Positions 28,510 through 35,601 of a DNA stretch of 64,000 nucleotides are shown piece by piece. Both the position numbers and the translations under genes were made by a program. The notes below the pieces were generated by a model. The model was not told the origin of the DNA. It ran no database searches and saw nothing but the letters and a program-made list of their open reading frames with translations. Source of the DNA: Helicobacter sp. 16-1353 (lineage in GTDB: Bacteria; Campylobacterota; Campylobacteria; Campylobacterales; Helicobacteraceae); assembly GCF_003288815.1 (NCBI RefSeq), contig NZ_NHYM01000002.1, forward strand, positions 124,001 to 188,000, in the 5' to 3' direction. Each line of letters starts with the position of its first letter. Within the stretch, counting starts at the first letter, position 1.

Positions 28510-28556
28510 ATTATAATCAAATTAGGCTTAAAGTTTTAAGCTAAATTTGCTAGAAT
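28510..28556. promoter_or_regulatory. Divergent promoter region of nusA and the HP0268-like gene with a palindrome
   Basis: Minus-strand TATAAT at 28510-28515 lies 42 nt before nusA. On the plus strand, an extended -10 TGCTAGAAT (TAGAAT at 28551-28556) lies 38 nt before the HP0268-like gene. Between them, 28526-28541 is a perfect inverted repeat, GCTTAAA-GT-TTTAAGC, suited to bind a dimeric regulator. No regulator is identified. Confidence 0.5.
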
Positions 28557-28594
28557 CTTTAATTTTAAACTTCTTATTAAACAAAAGGAATTAT

Positions 28595-28843
28595 ATGGAT
28601 TTAAAATTGGCTAGAAAAGATTCAAATGAAAAGCAAAAAATGATTTCTTTAGAAGAAATAGAAAAACAAGTTGAAGAAAAAGGAAGTGCGACTTTCTATC
28701 TTGATAAAGATAATTCCATAAAAGATATTCAAAAAATGCGAACCCAACTAGAGAAAAACTCAAAATCAGTTCATTGGAATGAGCTAAGATTCGGACTTGA
28801 CAAAGATAGTTTTTTATACGAATTGCATATTATTAATTATTAA
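28595..28843 (+). CDS. HP0268-like small protein
   Basis: 82-aa basic protein. The C-terminal 'VHWNELRFGLDKDSFLYELH' and the position directly before miaB match what I recall of H. pylori HP0268, which has been reported as a small nuclease with DNA-nicking and RNase activity. That activity is known for the family member, not shown here. The longest frame begins at 28547, but AAAAGGAA precedes ATG 28595 and fits best. It is 13 nt before miaB. Confidence 0.75.
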   Translation: MDLKLARKDSNEKQKMISLEEIEKQVEEKGSATFYLDKDNSIKDIQKMRTQLEKNSKSVHWNELRFGLDKDSFLYELHIINY

Positions 28844-28856
28844 AAGATTGTAGCAT

Positions 28857-30167
28857 TTGAGTAAAAAATTATTTATCAAAACCTTTGGTTGTGCTATGAA
28901 TACGCGAGATAGCGACCACATCATAGCAGAATTAAAAGAGAAAGAAAATTACTCCCTAACAGAAAATGCAAAAGAAGCAGATTTAATCATATTAAACACT
29001 TGCAGTGTGCGAGAAAAACCAGAAAGAAAACTTTTTAGCGAAATTGGAATCTATGCAAATATTAAAAAACCAAATGCAAAAATTGGAATCTGTGGTTGCA
29101 CGGCGAGTGCGTTGGGAGCGGAGATTATCAAAAAAGCCCCGAGTGTGGATTTTGTTTTAGGTGCTAGAAATGTATCTAAAATCACTAATATAATAAAAAA
29201 TCCAAAAGCAGTCGAAGTTGAAATAAATTATGATGAATCGAATTATGAATTTTGTATGAATACGGAATCCAATATAAGGGCTTTGATAAATATTTCTATA
29301 GGTTGCGATAAAAAATGCTCTTATTGCATTGTGCCACATACGCGGGGAAAAGAGATTTCAATCCCACTTGAAATGATTCTAAAAGAAGCTGAGATTCGAG
29401 TTAAAAACGGAGCAAAAGAGATAATCTTACTAGGGCAGAATGTAAATAATTATGGGGCTAGATTCTCCACACCGCCAAAAACCACAGATAAGAAAATTAA
29501 TTTCACATATTTACTACAAGAAATTAGCAAGATTAAAGAAATAAAACGAATAAAATTTGTCTCTCCGCATCCATTGCATATGGACGATGAATTTATAGAG
29601 GAATTTGCTAGAAATGAAAAAATCGTAAAATATATACATATGCCTTTACAAAGTGGCTCAAATAAAGTGCTAAAGGATATGAAACGAGGATATAGTAGAG
29701 AATGGTTTTTAGATAGAGTGAATAAGATAAAATCTCTCTGCCCTAATGTAGGCATTGGAACAGATATAATAGTGGCATTTCCAAATGAAAATGAAAATGA
29801 TTTTTACGATACACTTGAGATAGTAAAAGAAGTAGAATTTGACACAATGTATAGCTTCATATATTCACCGCGTAAGGACACTTTGGCGTTTCATCTCAAA
29901 GAAATAGATTCTAAAATAGCGACAAATAGATTAGAAATATTACAGAATCTACATAAGCAGATTTTAGAGAAAAAAGCAAAAAATGAGATTAATAAGATTC
30001 ACAAAGTTATGATTGAAAATATCAAAGATACAATGAGCGAAGGGCGAAGTGATAATGGGCGCGTAATAAAAATCCAAAATAAAAAACTAAATCTTGGCGA
30101 AATCTATAATGTAGTCATCACAAATAATGAAAATGGAAGCTTATTTGGTAGTTTAGTTAATGTTTGA
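28857..30167 (+). CDS. miaB: tRNA-2-methylthio-N6-dimethylallyladenosine synthase MiaB
   Basis: Radical-SAM methylthiotransferase that modifies A37 of tRNAs reading UNN codons (436 aa). The N-terminal UPF0004 domain has its three cluster cysteines ('TFGCAMNTRDSD', 'NTCSVREK', 'GICGCTA'). The radical-SAM motif is 'CDKKCSYCIVPHTRG'. A C-terminal TRAM domain follows residue 370. The start is TTG 28857; the ribosome site (AAAAGAT) is weak. It overlaps the next gene by 8 nt. Confidence 0.96.
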   Translation: MSKKLFIKTFGCAMNTRDSDHIIAELKEKENYSLTENAKEADLIILNTCSVREKPERKLFSEIGIYANIKKPNAKIGICGCTASALGAEIIKKAPSVDFVLGARNVSKITNIIKNPKAVEVEINYDESNYEFCMNTESNIRALINISIGCDKKCSYCIVPHTRGKEISIPLEMILKEAEIRVKNGAKEIILLGQNVNNYGARFSTPPKTTDKKINFTYLLQEISKIKEIKRIKFVSPHPLHMDDEFIEEFARNEKIVKYIHMPLQSGSNKVLKDMKRGYSREWFLDRVNKIKSLCPNVGIGTDIIVAFPNENENDFYDTLEIVKEVEFDTMYSFIYSPRKDTLAFHLKEIDSKIATNRLEILQNLHKQILEKKAKNEINKIHKVMIENIKDTMSEGRSDNGRVIKIQNKKLNLGEIYNVVITNNENGSLFGSLVNV

Positions 30168-30819
30168 TAAAGAAAAGCGTAAAAAAATAAAAAGAAAAAT
30201 CATTTTACTTATTGCACCAAGACTTGTTTGGATATTTTTATGGGTTTTATATATAAGTTGCAAAAATAGATTCTACATTCATAATGATATAAAAAAGTCA
30301 AATGCTATTCTTACATTTTGGCACGGAGAGTTTTTAATGCTCCCATTTTTATATCGTAAAATGCGAAAAATTCCAAAGATATTTGTTATCTCAAGTGAGC
30401 ATTTTGATGGGGAATTGATGGTGAAATTATATGGATATTTTGGATTTAAGACGATTCGAGGCTCAAGCTCAAAAGGTGGGAGGAGGGTGCTTATCCAAGC
30501 ATTTGAAAAGCTAAGAAATGGCTACGATACGGCAATAACACCCGATGGTCCAAAAGGTCCCTATCATAGCATTGCCGATGGTGTGGTAGCGATGGCACAA
30601 AAAACAAATATAAATATCGTAGTTGTGCATACTATTCCAAGTAGATTCTGGGAATTGAAAACTTGGGATAGATTCCAGATTCCAAAGCCTTTTTCCACTA
30701 TAAAATACTATTCAATGCCAAGTTTTAAGATAGATAAAGAAATGAATTTGGATAATGCAAAAGAATTAGTTTATAAAAAAATGACACTCAAACCAGAAGA
30801 TATTTTCAACGATACTTAA
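30160..30819 (+). CDS. DUF374 (LpxL/lysophospholipid acyltransferase-like) protein
   Basis: 219 aa with an N-terminal hydrophobic segment near residues 14-33. Family blocks: 'TFWHGEFLMLPF' near residue 52 (acyltransferase-type His, here HGE), 'TIRGSSSKGG' near 98 and 'AITPDGPKGPYHS' near 125. The family is predicted to add acyl groups to lipids at the inner membrane; the substrate is not known. It overlaps miaB by 8 nt and is followed by a 99-nt gap before the PilM-like gene. Confidence 0.88.
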   Translation: MFDKEKRKKIKRKIILLIAPRLVWIFLWVLYISCKNRFYIHNDIKKSNAILTFWHGEFLMLPFLYRKMRKIPKIFVISSEHFDGELMVKLYGYFGFKTIRGSSSKGGRRVLIQAFEKLRNGYDTAITPDGPKGPYHSIADGVVAMAQKTNINIVVVHTIPSRFWELKTWDRFQIPKPFSTIKYYSMPSFKIDKEMNLDNAKELVYKKMTLKPEDIFNDT

Positions 30820-30918: not shown

Positions 30919-31848
30919 TTGTCATTTTTTAGTAGAATGTATCAAAAAGTCATTATCTCGATTGATTTAGATATGAAAACTTGTAGATTGAGAATTACCT
31001 ATCATAATAATAAACATATGAAACAAGAAGAGCGTTCATATAAAACTATTAATGCAGATTTTCCAATAGAGGCTGCAAAATACATAAGACGAATTAAAAA
31101 TAAATATCCTTTTACTTATATTGGGACGATGTCAAGAAGTGCGAATCAAGGCTTAATAAATGGCAATAAAATAGATATATTTAATAAATTTGGATTAGAT
31201 ATAAATGCTCTTACAATTATGTTGATTAATAAAAAATGGTTTGTGTATATATCCAAAGAAAGCATACAAAACTATAAAAATAAATTCAATAAGGTAAATG
31301 GGGTTGATTTTATATTTTCACCTTTTATAATTATCTATGAAAAAATTAAAAATCGATTAGAAGAAGCAAAAAAATTATATATATTACAAGAAAAAACTTC
31401 TACATCATTGCTTGTAGCCGATAAAGATGGCATTTATTTTGGTAATTATATTATTTTTGAAGAAGATAATTTTGTAGATGAAATAAAAGAAAATGATACA
31501 AAACAAAATGATACAATAGAATTTGATGCTATAGATGATATTGATGAAAATATAATAATCAAGGATTTTGATAAAACAAATTATGAAATTTCTTCAACAG
31601 GTGGCTTGAGTGAGCTCTCCATTGCAAACCATATGATAGAAATCATAAAAGAAACATTAAATAATTTTTACAAAGATGATAGATATGCTAGTGATTTCAT
31701 TGATGAACTTTTAATATTAGATGGATATGGCATAAATGATAATGCACTAATACATTTAAAAAATAATACAATGATGGAAACGCATTTTTTACGAATTGAT
31801 ATTTGTGAGGAAATAGAAAAATTAGTCAAATTGGAATTAAAATTATGA
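30919..31848 (+). CDS. PilM-like cytoplasmic protein (weak match)
   Basis: 309-aa soluble protein, AT-rich. I do not recognise it by name. The N-terminus 'VIISIDLDMKTCRLRI' resembles the first phosphate loop of actin-fold PilM/GspL proteins, though it lacks their usual Gly, and 'DELLILDGYGINDNALIHL' near the C-terminus falls where PilM has its second glycine loop. A variable acidic stretch lies at residues 190-220. The main support is context: it is coupled by 4-nt overlaps to two genes with the topology of PilN and PilO. Start TTG 30919 with AAGGA 7 nt upstream. GATTC motifs are almost absent. Confidence 0.6.
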   Translation: MSFFSRMYQKVIISIDLDMKTCRLRITYHNNKHMKQEERSYKTINADFPIEAAKYIRRIKNKYPFTYIGTMSRSANQGLINGNKIDIFNKFGLDINALTIMLINKKWFVYISKESIQNYKNKFNKVNGVDFIFSPFIIIYEKIKNRLEEAKKLYILQEKTSTSLLVADKDGIYFGNYIIFEEDNFVDEIKENDTKQNDTIEFDAIDDIDENIIIKDFDKTNYEISSTGGLSELSIANHMIEIIKETLNNFYKDDRYASDFIDELLILDGYGINDNALIHLKNNTMMETHFLRIDICEEIEKLVKLELKL

Positions 31849-32354
31849 GATATAGCTTTACTTCACCATTACCAAAATCTATTATTTCACGATTAACAAA
31901 GATTTGGATTTTTTATATTATCTTAAGCGTTATGATAGTTTATCTAAGTGGGCTTTATCTAAATATAGAAAGAAATACATTAAGAAGTAATATGGAGATA
32001 GCAGAAAGCAATATAAACACGCAAGATGAGCAAATTGCGAAAATACAAGCAGATATAAATAGACTTCAATATGAACTAAATCTTGATAATACGAATAAAT
32101 TCTACAATAGTGAATTAAAATCCGCTCTCTTAAAGCTATTTGAACTCATACCAAACCAAATTACAATAACACAAATAAGTTTAGAAGAAAAGAGACTTGT
32201 TTTAAAGGGCATAACACCATCTAGAGAAATTTATTCATTCCTACTTCAAGCTCCATTAAAATCAATCTTTACAACAAGTAGGGTAGATTTCTTTCCACTG
32301 CCAAATGGTTGGTATAACTTCACATCAATTAGTGTGCTAAAAGAGGAACAATGA
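31845..32354 (+). CDS. PilN-like inner-membrane protein
   Basis: 169 aa: short cytoplasmic N-terminus, one transmembrane helix near residues 19-40, a coiled-coil stretch at 45-80, and a C-terminal periplasmic domain. The C-terminal part 'LFELIPNQITITQISLEEKR' followed by 'LVLKGITPSREIYSFLLQAP' fits the PilN/GspL-C pattern (a strand pair, then 'GxAxS', then a helix). This would be an inner-membrane platform protein of a type IV pilus or type II secretion-like machine. ATGA overlaps on both sides tie it to its neighbours. Confidence 0.65.
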   Translation: MRYSFTSPLPKSIISRLTKIWIFYIILSVMIVYLSGLYLNIERNTLRSNMEIAESNINTQDEQIAKIQADINRLQYELNLDNTNKFYNSELKSALLKLFELIPNQITITQISLEEKRLVLKGITPSREIYSFLLQAPLKSIFTTSRVDFFPLPNGWYNFTSISVLKEEQ

Positions 32355-32887
32355 GAATCTTAGAATTTTTGAATGATATTGATTGGAGTAAAAATATTAT
32401 ATTATTTATTGTATATATAATGGTTGTAGTATTTTGCATATTGTTTTATTTAATGCCAATTATTCAAAATCATAGAATGCAGACATTGGATTACAAAAAA
32501 ATACAGAATCTAGACTATACAATCAATAATAATGTCGAGATTCTAAATCATAATCTACAAACAATGCTAGAAAAAGATAAACAAGTTTATAAAAATATAA
32601 GAAATAAGATTGATGTAGAGGATTTGCAACAATATATTTCAAAATTTTTAAATAATGTAAAGATAGTTGATGAGGGGACAGAATCTAACAATGATAATAT
32701 AGAAATCAATAAAATATATATTAGCGGAGAGGCTAAAAACACACAAGAAATAATATCATTGATAGAAAACTTAAAATTGGTAAATAATAGTGTAAGGATA
32801 AATTTCCCTATAAATATAACAAAACAAAATAATATATTAAAAGTAGAATTTGGGATTAAGATTTATCATAGTAGTTATCAATTCTAA
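32351..32887 (+). CDS. PilO-like inner-membrane protein
   Basis: 178 aa: one transmembrane helix near residues 18-38, a coiled-coil region at 45-90, and a small C-terminal domain with 'INKIYISGEAKNTQEIISLI' and a final beta strand, as in PilO/GspM proteins that pair with PilN. Assignment rests on topology, gene order and 4-nt coupling. The gene ends 32 nt before the convergent polA stop. No pilin, PilQ or assembly ATPase gene is in the window. Confidence 0.6.
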   Translation: MRILEFLNDIDWSKNIILFIVYIMVVVFCILFYLMPIIQNHRMQTLDYKKIQNLDYTINNNVEILNHNLQTMLEKDKQVYKNIRNKIDVEDLQQYISKFLNNVKIVDEGTESNNDNIEINKIYISGEAKNTQEIISLIENLKLVNNSVRINFPINITKQNNILKVEFGIKIYHSSYQF

Positions 32888-32919: not shown

Positions 32920-35601
32920 TTATTTCAATTCTGACCACCGTTTGCCTATGTTTATCCCGCATTTAAGGGGAACATTTAGTTTATAGATATTATTCATTAT
33001 CTCTAGAATCTCTTTTGACACTACATCTATTTCATCTTCTTTTATCTCAAAAATAAGCTCATCATGAACTTGCAAAAGCAATTTAACATCACGATTTTTA
33101 AATTGTTTATAACACTCATTCATTGATAATTTTATTAAATCAGCAGCACTTCCTTGAAAAATAGAATTTACACCTTCGCGTAAAAATGCCAATCTCTCAT
33201 ATTCTGCAATATTATGAAAATCAAAGATTCTTCGTCTTCCTAACAGAGTTTGTGAATATCCATTTTCTAATATTATTGCTTCTTGTTTGTTTAGATAATC
33301 TTTAACTGTGGGAAAATTCTTAAAATAACTCTCTATGTATTCTTTGCTTTGCGTTTGTGAAATCTTTAATGTTTGGGCTAGTTTTTTAACCCCCATTCCA
33401 TAAATCAATCCAAAATTAATACTTTTTGCCACATTCCTTTTACTTTGAGCTAAAGATGCTCCAAAAATCTTTAGGGCTGTTTCTAAATGTATATCCTTAT
33501 CATTCATAAAAGCAGCTATTAGATTTGGGTCTTTTGAAAAATGTGCTAAAAGCCTTAATTCTATTTGCGAATAATCCGCAGATAATAATTTATATCCATC
33601 TTTAGCAATAAAGCCATAACGAATTTTTCTTCCAATATCAGTTTTAACTGGAATATTTTGTAGATTTGGATTCCTAGAGCTAAGTCGTCCTGTGCTAGTT
33701 CCTGTTTGTAAAAACGAAGTATAGATTCTATTATTATTTGCAAGATTTAGGATTGGTAAAACATAGGTGCTAAGCAACTTATTTAATTCTCTATATTCCA
33801 ATAAAAATGGAATAATTATATGAGTATCAATCAAAGATTCCAATGTTTTTTCATCAGTGCTATAACCACTATTTTTTAAAGCTCTGCCTTTTTTTAGACC
33901 TAATTTATTATATAGAATCTCGCCTAATTGTCTTGTGGAATTAATATTAAATTCCACTTCTGCAATCCTATAAATCTCATTGCTAACTTCTTTTAGCCTA
34001 TCTCCAAGCTCATTTTTAAGTAAAACAAAAAAATCTCTATCGATGCTAATGCCATTACTTTCCATTTCTATAATGGTTTTTACAAATGGAAACTCAACAT
34101 TCAAAGCAATGTCTAATTGCTCTTTACCTAAGGTATTTTGAAAAAAATAATATAGTGCTAGAGTGCAGATAGCGTCTTGTGCGGCATATTTAGTAGCAGT
34201 ATTAATATTTACACTAGAAAATGTATCACCTTTTTGGACAATCTCATCAAATTTAATCGTAATGTAATTAAAATTTTTCTTTACTTGATAATCTAAATTC
34301 AACACTTGAGAAGTATTTTCCAACCAAGCTAAAATCATAGTATCGCTATAATTTAAAATATCTAAATCAAAATTATGTGAAACTACTGCTATATCAAACT
34401 TAAGATTATGTCCTACTATGTGATGGTTTGAAAATAGTTTTTGTAGTGCAATTTTTGCATCGGATATTGAGATTTGATTTTCAACACCAAGATAAAAATG
34501 ATTTAATGGGACATAATATCCTATATCCAAATTAGATGCGAATGAAAACCCAATGATATTAGCACTCTTTGTATCAAGTGAATCTGTCTCTGTATCGAAA
34601 GCCACAACACAATCTTTACTCAATGCATTAATAATATCGAAAAGCTCATTTTTATCTAAGATTGCTTTTGTCGCAAAAGGTTTGATTGTATGAATATTAT
34701 TATTATCTTTAAGATTAAGGCTCTTATTTGGAACCTTAAAATTACTATTTTGAGTAAGTTTTGATAGTATATTTATATCATAGGATTTCAGCTCTTCTTC
34801 TATTAAAAATAATGGATTATGAGTTGGTTTAATCATAGATTCTAAATCAAAAAAATCCAATAAATTATCCCTTAAAATAACTAATTCTCTACTTCTATAT
34901 GCGGAATCCTTATCATTAATAATTCTATCAATTAACTTTGGGGTTAAAAAATGTTGTAATTCCTTTTTATTTTCATATATTGCATCAAGTGAGCCAAAAT
35001 GACTTATTAACTTTTGGGCGGATTTCGCACCAATGCCTTTGATTCCTGATATATTGTCGCTGGTATCGCCAACCAAACTTTGATAATCCACAAATTGCTT
35101 TGGATAAACGCCAAACTTCTCAAAGCACTCCGCCTCCCTAATATCTTTCTTTTTAATTGGGTCATAAATATAAGTATTAGAATCTATTAATTGATATAAA
35201 TCTTTATCAACACTAACAATTTTTACAATAATATTTTTTGAATTTGCTAGTTTATTTAATGAAGCAATAGCATCATCAGCCTCATATCCATCAATAGAAA
35301 TATATGCAAGTTTCATTTTTTTTATCCACTCGATTGAAACTTTGATTTGCTCAACTAATTCTTGGTCGGCTTCAGGTCTATTTGCTTTGTAATCTGGGGC
35401 AATTTGTCGTCTAATCTTATCCCCCTCTCCCTCTAATGCAAAAACGATATAAGAGGAATCATCATTATAAAGTTGATTAATGAGATTAACAAAGCCAAGC
35501 AAAACTCCAGTAGGTCGCCCATCTTTGCTTTTTAGTTTTGGCATAGCATAAAAGCTACGAAAAAAATAACCAAATGTATCAATAATGGATAAAGTTTTCA
35601 T
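32920..35601 (-). CDS. polA: DNA polymerase I
   Basis: 893 aa with all three domains. The 5'-3' exonuclease occupies about residues 1-290 ('SLVGDTSDNISGIKGIGAKS'). The 3'-5' exonuclease region contains 'VAFDTETDSLD' (Asp and Glu), 'GHNLKFDIAV' (Asp) and 'YAAQDAICTLALY' (Tyr and Asp), so the metal-binding residues look complete. The polymerase has 'LLSADYSQIELRLLAHFS' (motif A), 'KRNVAKSINFGLIYGMG' (motif B) and 'LLLQVHDELIFE' (motif C). ATG 35601 is 1 nt after the xth stop. Confidence 0.97.
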   Translation of the reverse strand: MKTLSIIDTFGYFFRSFYAMPKLKSKDGRPTGVLLGFVNLINQLYNDDSSYIVFALEGEGDKIRRQIAPDYKANRPEADQELVEQIKVSIEWIKKMKLAYISIDGYEADDAIASLNKLANSKNIIVKIVSVDKDLYQLIDSNTYIYDPIKKKDIREAECFEKFGVYPKQFVDYQSLVGDTSDNISGIKGIGAKSAQKLISHFGSLDAIYENKKELQHFLTPKLIDRIINDKDSAYRSRELVILRDNLLDFFDLESMIKPTHNPLFLIEEELKSYDINILSKLTQNSNFKVPNKSLNLKDNNNIHTIKPFATKAILDKNELFDIINALSKDCVVAFDTETDSLDTKSANIIGFSFASNLDIGYYVPLNHFYLGVENQISISDAKIALQKLFSNHHIVGHNLKFDIAVVSHNFDLDILNYSDTMILAWLENTSQVLNLDYQVKKNFNYITIKFDEIVQKGDTFSSVNINTATKYAAQDAICTLALYYFFQNTLGKEQLDIALNVEFPFVKTIIEMESNGISIDRDFFVLLKNELGDRLKEVSNEIYRIAEVEFNINSTRQLGEILYNKLGLKKGRALKNSGYSTDEKTLESLIDTHIIIPFLLEYRELNKLLSTYVLPILNLANNNRIYTSFLQTGTSTGRLSSRNPNLQNIPVKTDIGRKIRYGFIAKDGYKLLSADYSQIELRLLAHFSKDPNLIAAFMNDKDIHLETALKIFGASLAQSKRNVAKSINFGLIYGMGVKKLAQTLKISQTQSKEYIESYFKNFPTVKDYLNKQEAIILENGYSQTLLGRRRIFDFHNIAEYERLAFLREGVNSIFQGSAADLIKLSMNECYKQFKNRDVKLLLQVHDELIFEIKEDEIDVVSKEILEIMNNIYKLNVPLKCGINIGKRWSELK

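Follow-up and report, generated by a model that had tools for sequence, protein, structure and literature searches.

A PilMNO-like gene trio behind miaB in Helicobacter sp. 16-1353 is very probably the fcpMNO operon of the flagellar cage

Three overlapping genes in Helicobacter sp. 16-1353 are very probably the miaB-linked fcpMNO operon of Campylobacterota, whose products, judged by orthology, would form a cage that stabilises the stators of the flagellar motor. The trio is essentially ordinary, as the set has already been described in H. pylori (2024) and C. jejuni (2025); the primary report on the H. pylori cage appeared in PNAS in 2024. The initial annotation had suggested a remnant or an undescribed envelope machine, a suggestion that gives way here to the described FcpMNO cage.

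The genes lie on the + strand within the window, the whole 64,000-nucleotide stretch of DNA that was analysed. The three open reading frames, the segments discussed below and the two upstream neighbours are as follows.

28857..30167, + strand: miaB, the upstream neighbour, an open reading frame named from its MiaB-type sequence
30160..30819, + strand: DUF374-domain gene between miaB and fcpM (Pfam PF04028, E 1.6e-25)
30919..31848, + strand: fcpM (PilM-like), predicted soluble actin-fold (ASKHA) protein of 309 aa with a TTG start
31465..31599, + strand: FcpM residues 183-227, acidic and modelled with low confidence (pLDDT <50, alignment A1)
31845..32354, + strand: fcpN (PilN-like), 169 aa, with a cytoplasmic tail, a membrane helix, a coiled coil and a ferredoxin-like C-terminal domain, as predicted
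31854..31877, + strand: conserved cytoplasmic FcpN motif SFxxPxxK, residues 4-11 (30-sequence alignment)
31881..31970, + strand: predicted FcpN membrane helix, residues 13-42 (Kyte-Doolittle scan)
32351..32887, + strand: fcpO (PilO-like), 178 aa, with a membrane helix, a coiled coil and a small C-terminal domain, as predicted
32378..32473, + strand: predicted FcpO membrane helix, residues 10-41 (Kyte-Doolittle scan, maximum 3.21)

The 4-nt overlaps noticed at first sight are present as ATGA at both the fcpM/fcpN and the fcpN/fcpO junctions, and the genes are indeed very AT-rich, with GC contents of 23.9% (fcpM), 29.2% (fcpN) and 22.0% (fcpO) against 35.5% for the window. A GAAGGA-like ribosome site precedes the TTG start codon of fcpM, and this start is credible because it is shared by close relatives (MSxFS..., family alignment A1). 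A promoter scan returned 42 sites compared with 33.1 (sd 5.5) in shuffles, which is no excess, and the same scan found no terminator.

The arrangement is well conserved. FcpN is present in 37 of 40 related genomes, and in all 30 related loci that were read the genes run M-N-O, overlapping slightly or leaving short gaps, indicating that the trio is not a chance arrangement. Identity to the window proteins in the related loci ranges from 20 to 71% for FcpM and from 29 to 69% for FcpN. We further inspected 49 organism-named loci, which came from several Helicobacter species, Sulfurospirillum, Campylobacter assemblies and uncultured Helicobacteraceae; the closest belonged to Helicobacteraceae genomes from gut metagenomes (66-69% identity), so that the window's species probably falls within this uncultured lineage and not with a well-known Helicobacter. 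An M gene stood directly upstream of fcpN in 45 of the 49, a DUF374 gene lay upstream in 32, and 29 had miaB upstream in the same orientation. miaB has been reported as the conserved gene upstream of fcpMNO (PMC11870540). Farther upstream in the window, between nusA and miaB, a small open reading frame (28547-28843) is matched at 30 of these 49 loci and by no curated family.

FcpM has no membrane segment in a Kyte-Doolittle scan, nor do 25 of the 30 first proteins of the family. Its AlphaFold model (mean pLDDT 81.8) adopts an actin-type fold, and a Foldseek search with the model placed solved PilM chains at ranks 1-7 (best E 1.2e-10). Structural alignment with VIA-align gave Z scores of 16.7 to PilM 2ych_A (rmsd 4.3 over 259 residues) and 18.7 to FtsA 7q6i_D; this places the model in the FtsA/PilM class, but Z by itself cannot pick between the two. 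The first protein had been read in the initial annotation as soluble with a weak actin-fold start, and both the missing membrane segment and the modelled PilM/FtsA-type fold bear this out. Residues 183-227, an acidic stretch whose length varies through the family (alignment A1), are probably disordered. By eye, the aligned sequences lack the DxG-type phosphate-binding glycines at residues 15-19 and 155-163, the two hairpins where type IVa PilM usually carries them. Because these glycines of the usual actin-fold phosphate motifs are missing in this inspection by eye, FcpM may serve as a structural adaptor and not act as an ATPase. A PilM_2 search of the whole host genome yielded a single match above the cut-off, in another frame of 460 aa, and did not recover FcpM.

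As first proposed, FcpN and FcpO each carry one membrane segment in the Kyte-Doolittle scan, and so do all 30 second and all 29 third proteins of the family. The FcpN model (mean pLDDT 85.7) consists of a long helix, residues 16-101, followed by a small domain that is of the PilN/GspL ferredoxin-like type in the model, in line with the PilN-like C-terminal pattern noted earlier. In VIA-align this domain reached Z 7.4 to PilN 4bhq_B (rmsd 3.1 over 64 residues) and 7.8 and 7.6 to GspL-type domains (GspL/PulL/XcpY), so that the two kinds are tied. Pfam PilN was matched by 12 of 30 FcpN family members, the most for any Pfam family (best E 7.5e-4). Single-sequence Pfam and NCBIfam scans of the trio gave nothing above cut-off, PilN appearing below its own, and sequence-profile searches of the PDB returned coiled-coil noise only. 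In the cytoplasmic tail of FcpN, S4 is invariant and F5 and K11 are at least 90% conserved among 30 sequences. The N-terminal tail of PilN binds PilM; the SFxxPxxK tail is placed like it, from which we infer a similar binding role. FcpO is assigned as PilO-like by profile comparison and predicted topology.

The tie between PilN and GspL in FcpN raises the question of a type II secretion platform of the GspL/GspM type, with which the trio would share a ferredoxin-like periplasmic and an actin-like cytoplasmic domain. GspL is a single chain that combines all of these, the actin-like part, the membrane part and the periplasmic part, whereas the actin-fold M and the membrane protein N are separate genes here. 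Moreover, no secretin, ATPase or pseudopilin gene was seen near the trio, which adjoins miaB, and FcpN shows a phyletic link with flagella (see below). We consider such a secretion platform extremely improbable.

To relate the trio to pilus proteins, we built reference families from a T4P-like cluster of the host and its relatives and aligned their profiles to those of the trio with hhalign. For every protein of the trio the best match was its own counterpart, with probabilities of 54.8% (M-M), 89.5% (N-N) and 76.4% (O-O), and off-diagonal pairs were lower. The observed scores of 39.7, 44.4 and 39.7 for M, N and O were reached by none of 60 column shuffles, whose tops were 23.7, 18.5 and 16.4, and reversed profiles scored 14.8-19.1. 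Because the diagonal matches beat both shuffles and reversed profiles, the comparison argues for a remote homology of the trio to PilM, PilN and PilO and at the same time for a family separate from the genome's own T4P-like M, N, O set. The resemblance to PilM/PilN/PilO that prompted this analysis is thus upheld by the Foldseek ranks, the PilN/GspL fold and the diagonal profile matches; profile-profile comparison and structure prediction, the checks put forward with the initial annotation, gave PilM and PilN matches for M and N, and a match by profile for O.

This homology would also fit a PilMNO alignment subcomplex belonging to a type IV pilus, either a functional one or a remnant. The trio has the M and N folds, the topology, the M-N-O order and the remote profile similarity of the type IVa PilM-PilN-PilO(-PilP) set, and PilB-, PilC-, PilT- and secretin-like genes are present in the same genome. 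However, the T4P-like cluster used above (L053; G000 contig C4, 20218-28988) is on a different contig from the trio and has M, N and O proteins of its own, namely a 578-aa PilMN-type fusion and a PilO-like protein, together with a PilP-like protein, a secretin, a TPR protein, a PilB-type ATPase and a PilC-type protein. The cluster was called by gene order around the PilB match, since the PilB model TIGR02538 could not decide alone: controls also stayed below its cut-off, which no genome searched reached. Beside the trio, by contrast, pilP and pilQ are absent, and polA follows fcpO on the opposite strand, at 32920. Nor is the presence of the trio tied to T4P genes. Within the host family FcpN occurs in 24 of 24 genomes, and T4P-like PilMN (scored at E <1e-8) in 6 of 24, from 2 of 13 genera (g1, g7); 18 members thus have FcpN with no T4P-like PilMN found. 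A pilus subcomplex is therefore very unlikely. Elsewhere in the host genome, a 527-aa PilT-type ATPase gene (L055 7769-9945; G000 contig C26) neighbours a small gene, read divergently, that has a pilin-like N-methylation motif. The coexistence of a T4P-like machine and the cage genes in a gut Helicobacteraceae lineage is mildly new.

We then return to the flagellar cage, for which co-occurrence is informative. The host genome has flagellar FliF and FlhA. Profile A2 was used to score FcpN, and FliF to score flagella, in 298 further genomes of the order, strong FcpN being the listed unfused-type matches; the matches in two families, f9 and f18, were weak, as were a few more. Strong FcpN was found in 197 genomes, and FliF in 196 of these (a tally of listed rows). 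FliF occurred without strong FcpN in 55 genomes, 33 of them in f9 and 16 in f18. Outside these two families, 196 genomes had both, 1 FcpN only, 6 FliF only and 45 neither (Fisher p ~1e-41, not to be taken literally as the genomes are related). FcpN thus tracks FliF closely outside f9 and f18. The tie to flagella is strong and not absolute, because four genomes with FcpN have no detected FliF or FlhA.

The two exceptional families carry fused versions. In f18 (L043-L046), FcpM and FcpN form one protein of 338-402 aa behind DUF374, and O is separate; in f9 (L145, L146, L149-L173), a single chain of ~525 aa has parts that match M and N plus the end of O, lies behind miaB and DUF374 and usually has a single predicted membrane segment after M. 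An fcpMN fusion in Nitratiruptor and an fcpMNO fusion in Arcobacter have been described (PMC11870540), and these probably correspond to the f18-like and f9 forms, respectively. We had considered the M-N (f18) and M-N-O (f9) fusions as possibly new and dropped this point, as such fusions are reported there.

The four genomes without detected FliF or FlhA bear on whether a second role in the envelope, unrelated to flagella, would explain why the trio is retained where flagellar genes are missing. Fcp-type trios persist behind miaB/DUF374 in three of them, G185 (L147), G262 (L148) and G034 (L042); in the fourth, G240, an FcpN match was seen. Three of the four are single-contig genomes, with 99-100% completeness. 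In hhalign, M, N and O of G185 and G034 match Fcp families (96.8-99.9%) above T4P-like families, and both genomes also carry a separate T4P-like PilMN. In G185 and G262, a tyrosine-recombinase-like gene is inserted before the trio. The existence of such trios is a mildly new point. Recent loss of flagella in these lineages is the simple reading and would give the same picture as a second role, and the 45 non-flagellated genomes, most of those sampled, have no strong FcpN match; we accordingly give very little credence to a second role as the reason for retention. It is likewise highly unlikely that an M-N-O platform with a second envelope role, allowing persistence without flagella, operates in the window's species.

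The flagellar cage accounts for the features seen here: the unfused M-N-O order with miaB upstream, the PilM-like modelled fold of M, the single predicted helix of N and of O, and occurrence with flagellar genes and not with T4P. The C. jejuni genes (CJJ81176_0481-0479) and their H. pylori homologues likewise follow miaB in M-N-O order as three separate genes, the unfused form being that of most of the phylum (PMC11870540). These sets also share the actin-fold M, the one-helix N and O and a flagellated host. The likeness was drawn from gene order, fold and published descriptions. Sequence identity between families, and between genera, is low. The position of the cage in the motor was imaged in C. 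jejuni.

In that species, deleting the three genes removes the peripheral (outer) cage of 34 units and leaves ~10% of motors with loaded stators, and the proteins, named FcpM, FcpN and FcpO, pull each other down and interact with PflD (PMC11870540). In H. pylori, PilM, PilN and PilO homologues are reported to form a cage around the stators, and cells without PilO show low early biofilm and normal rotation directions (PMC11237671). The sequence, the modelled folds of M and N, the remote homology of all three proteins, the synteny and the flagellar co-occurrence are established here; the motor location and the effect on stator occupancy come from relatives studied by other groups. By orthology with these relatives, we infer the same motor role in the window's species. 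FcpM, with its actin fold, would reside in the cytoplasm and probably bind the N-terminal tail of FcpN. One membrane helix each would anchor FcpN and FcpO, whose coiled coils and small domains in the periplasm would pair. The three proteins, joined by PflD in C. jejuni, would make up the units of a ring-like cage at the motor edge that holds the MotAB stators in place.

Taken together, the supposed mystery of a PilMNO-like platform in Helicobacter-type genomes is removed by its very probable identity as the flagellar cage, which would clearly exemplify how a different machine has co-opted components of a pilus. Whether the platform can persist after the flagellum is lost becomes testable with the few trio genomes in which no flagellar genes were detected. 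The window's species, which has the cage genes alongside a T4P-like cluster that includes M, N and O proteins of its own, is suited to a direct comparison of the two.
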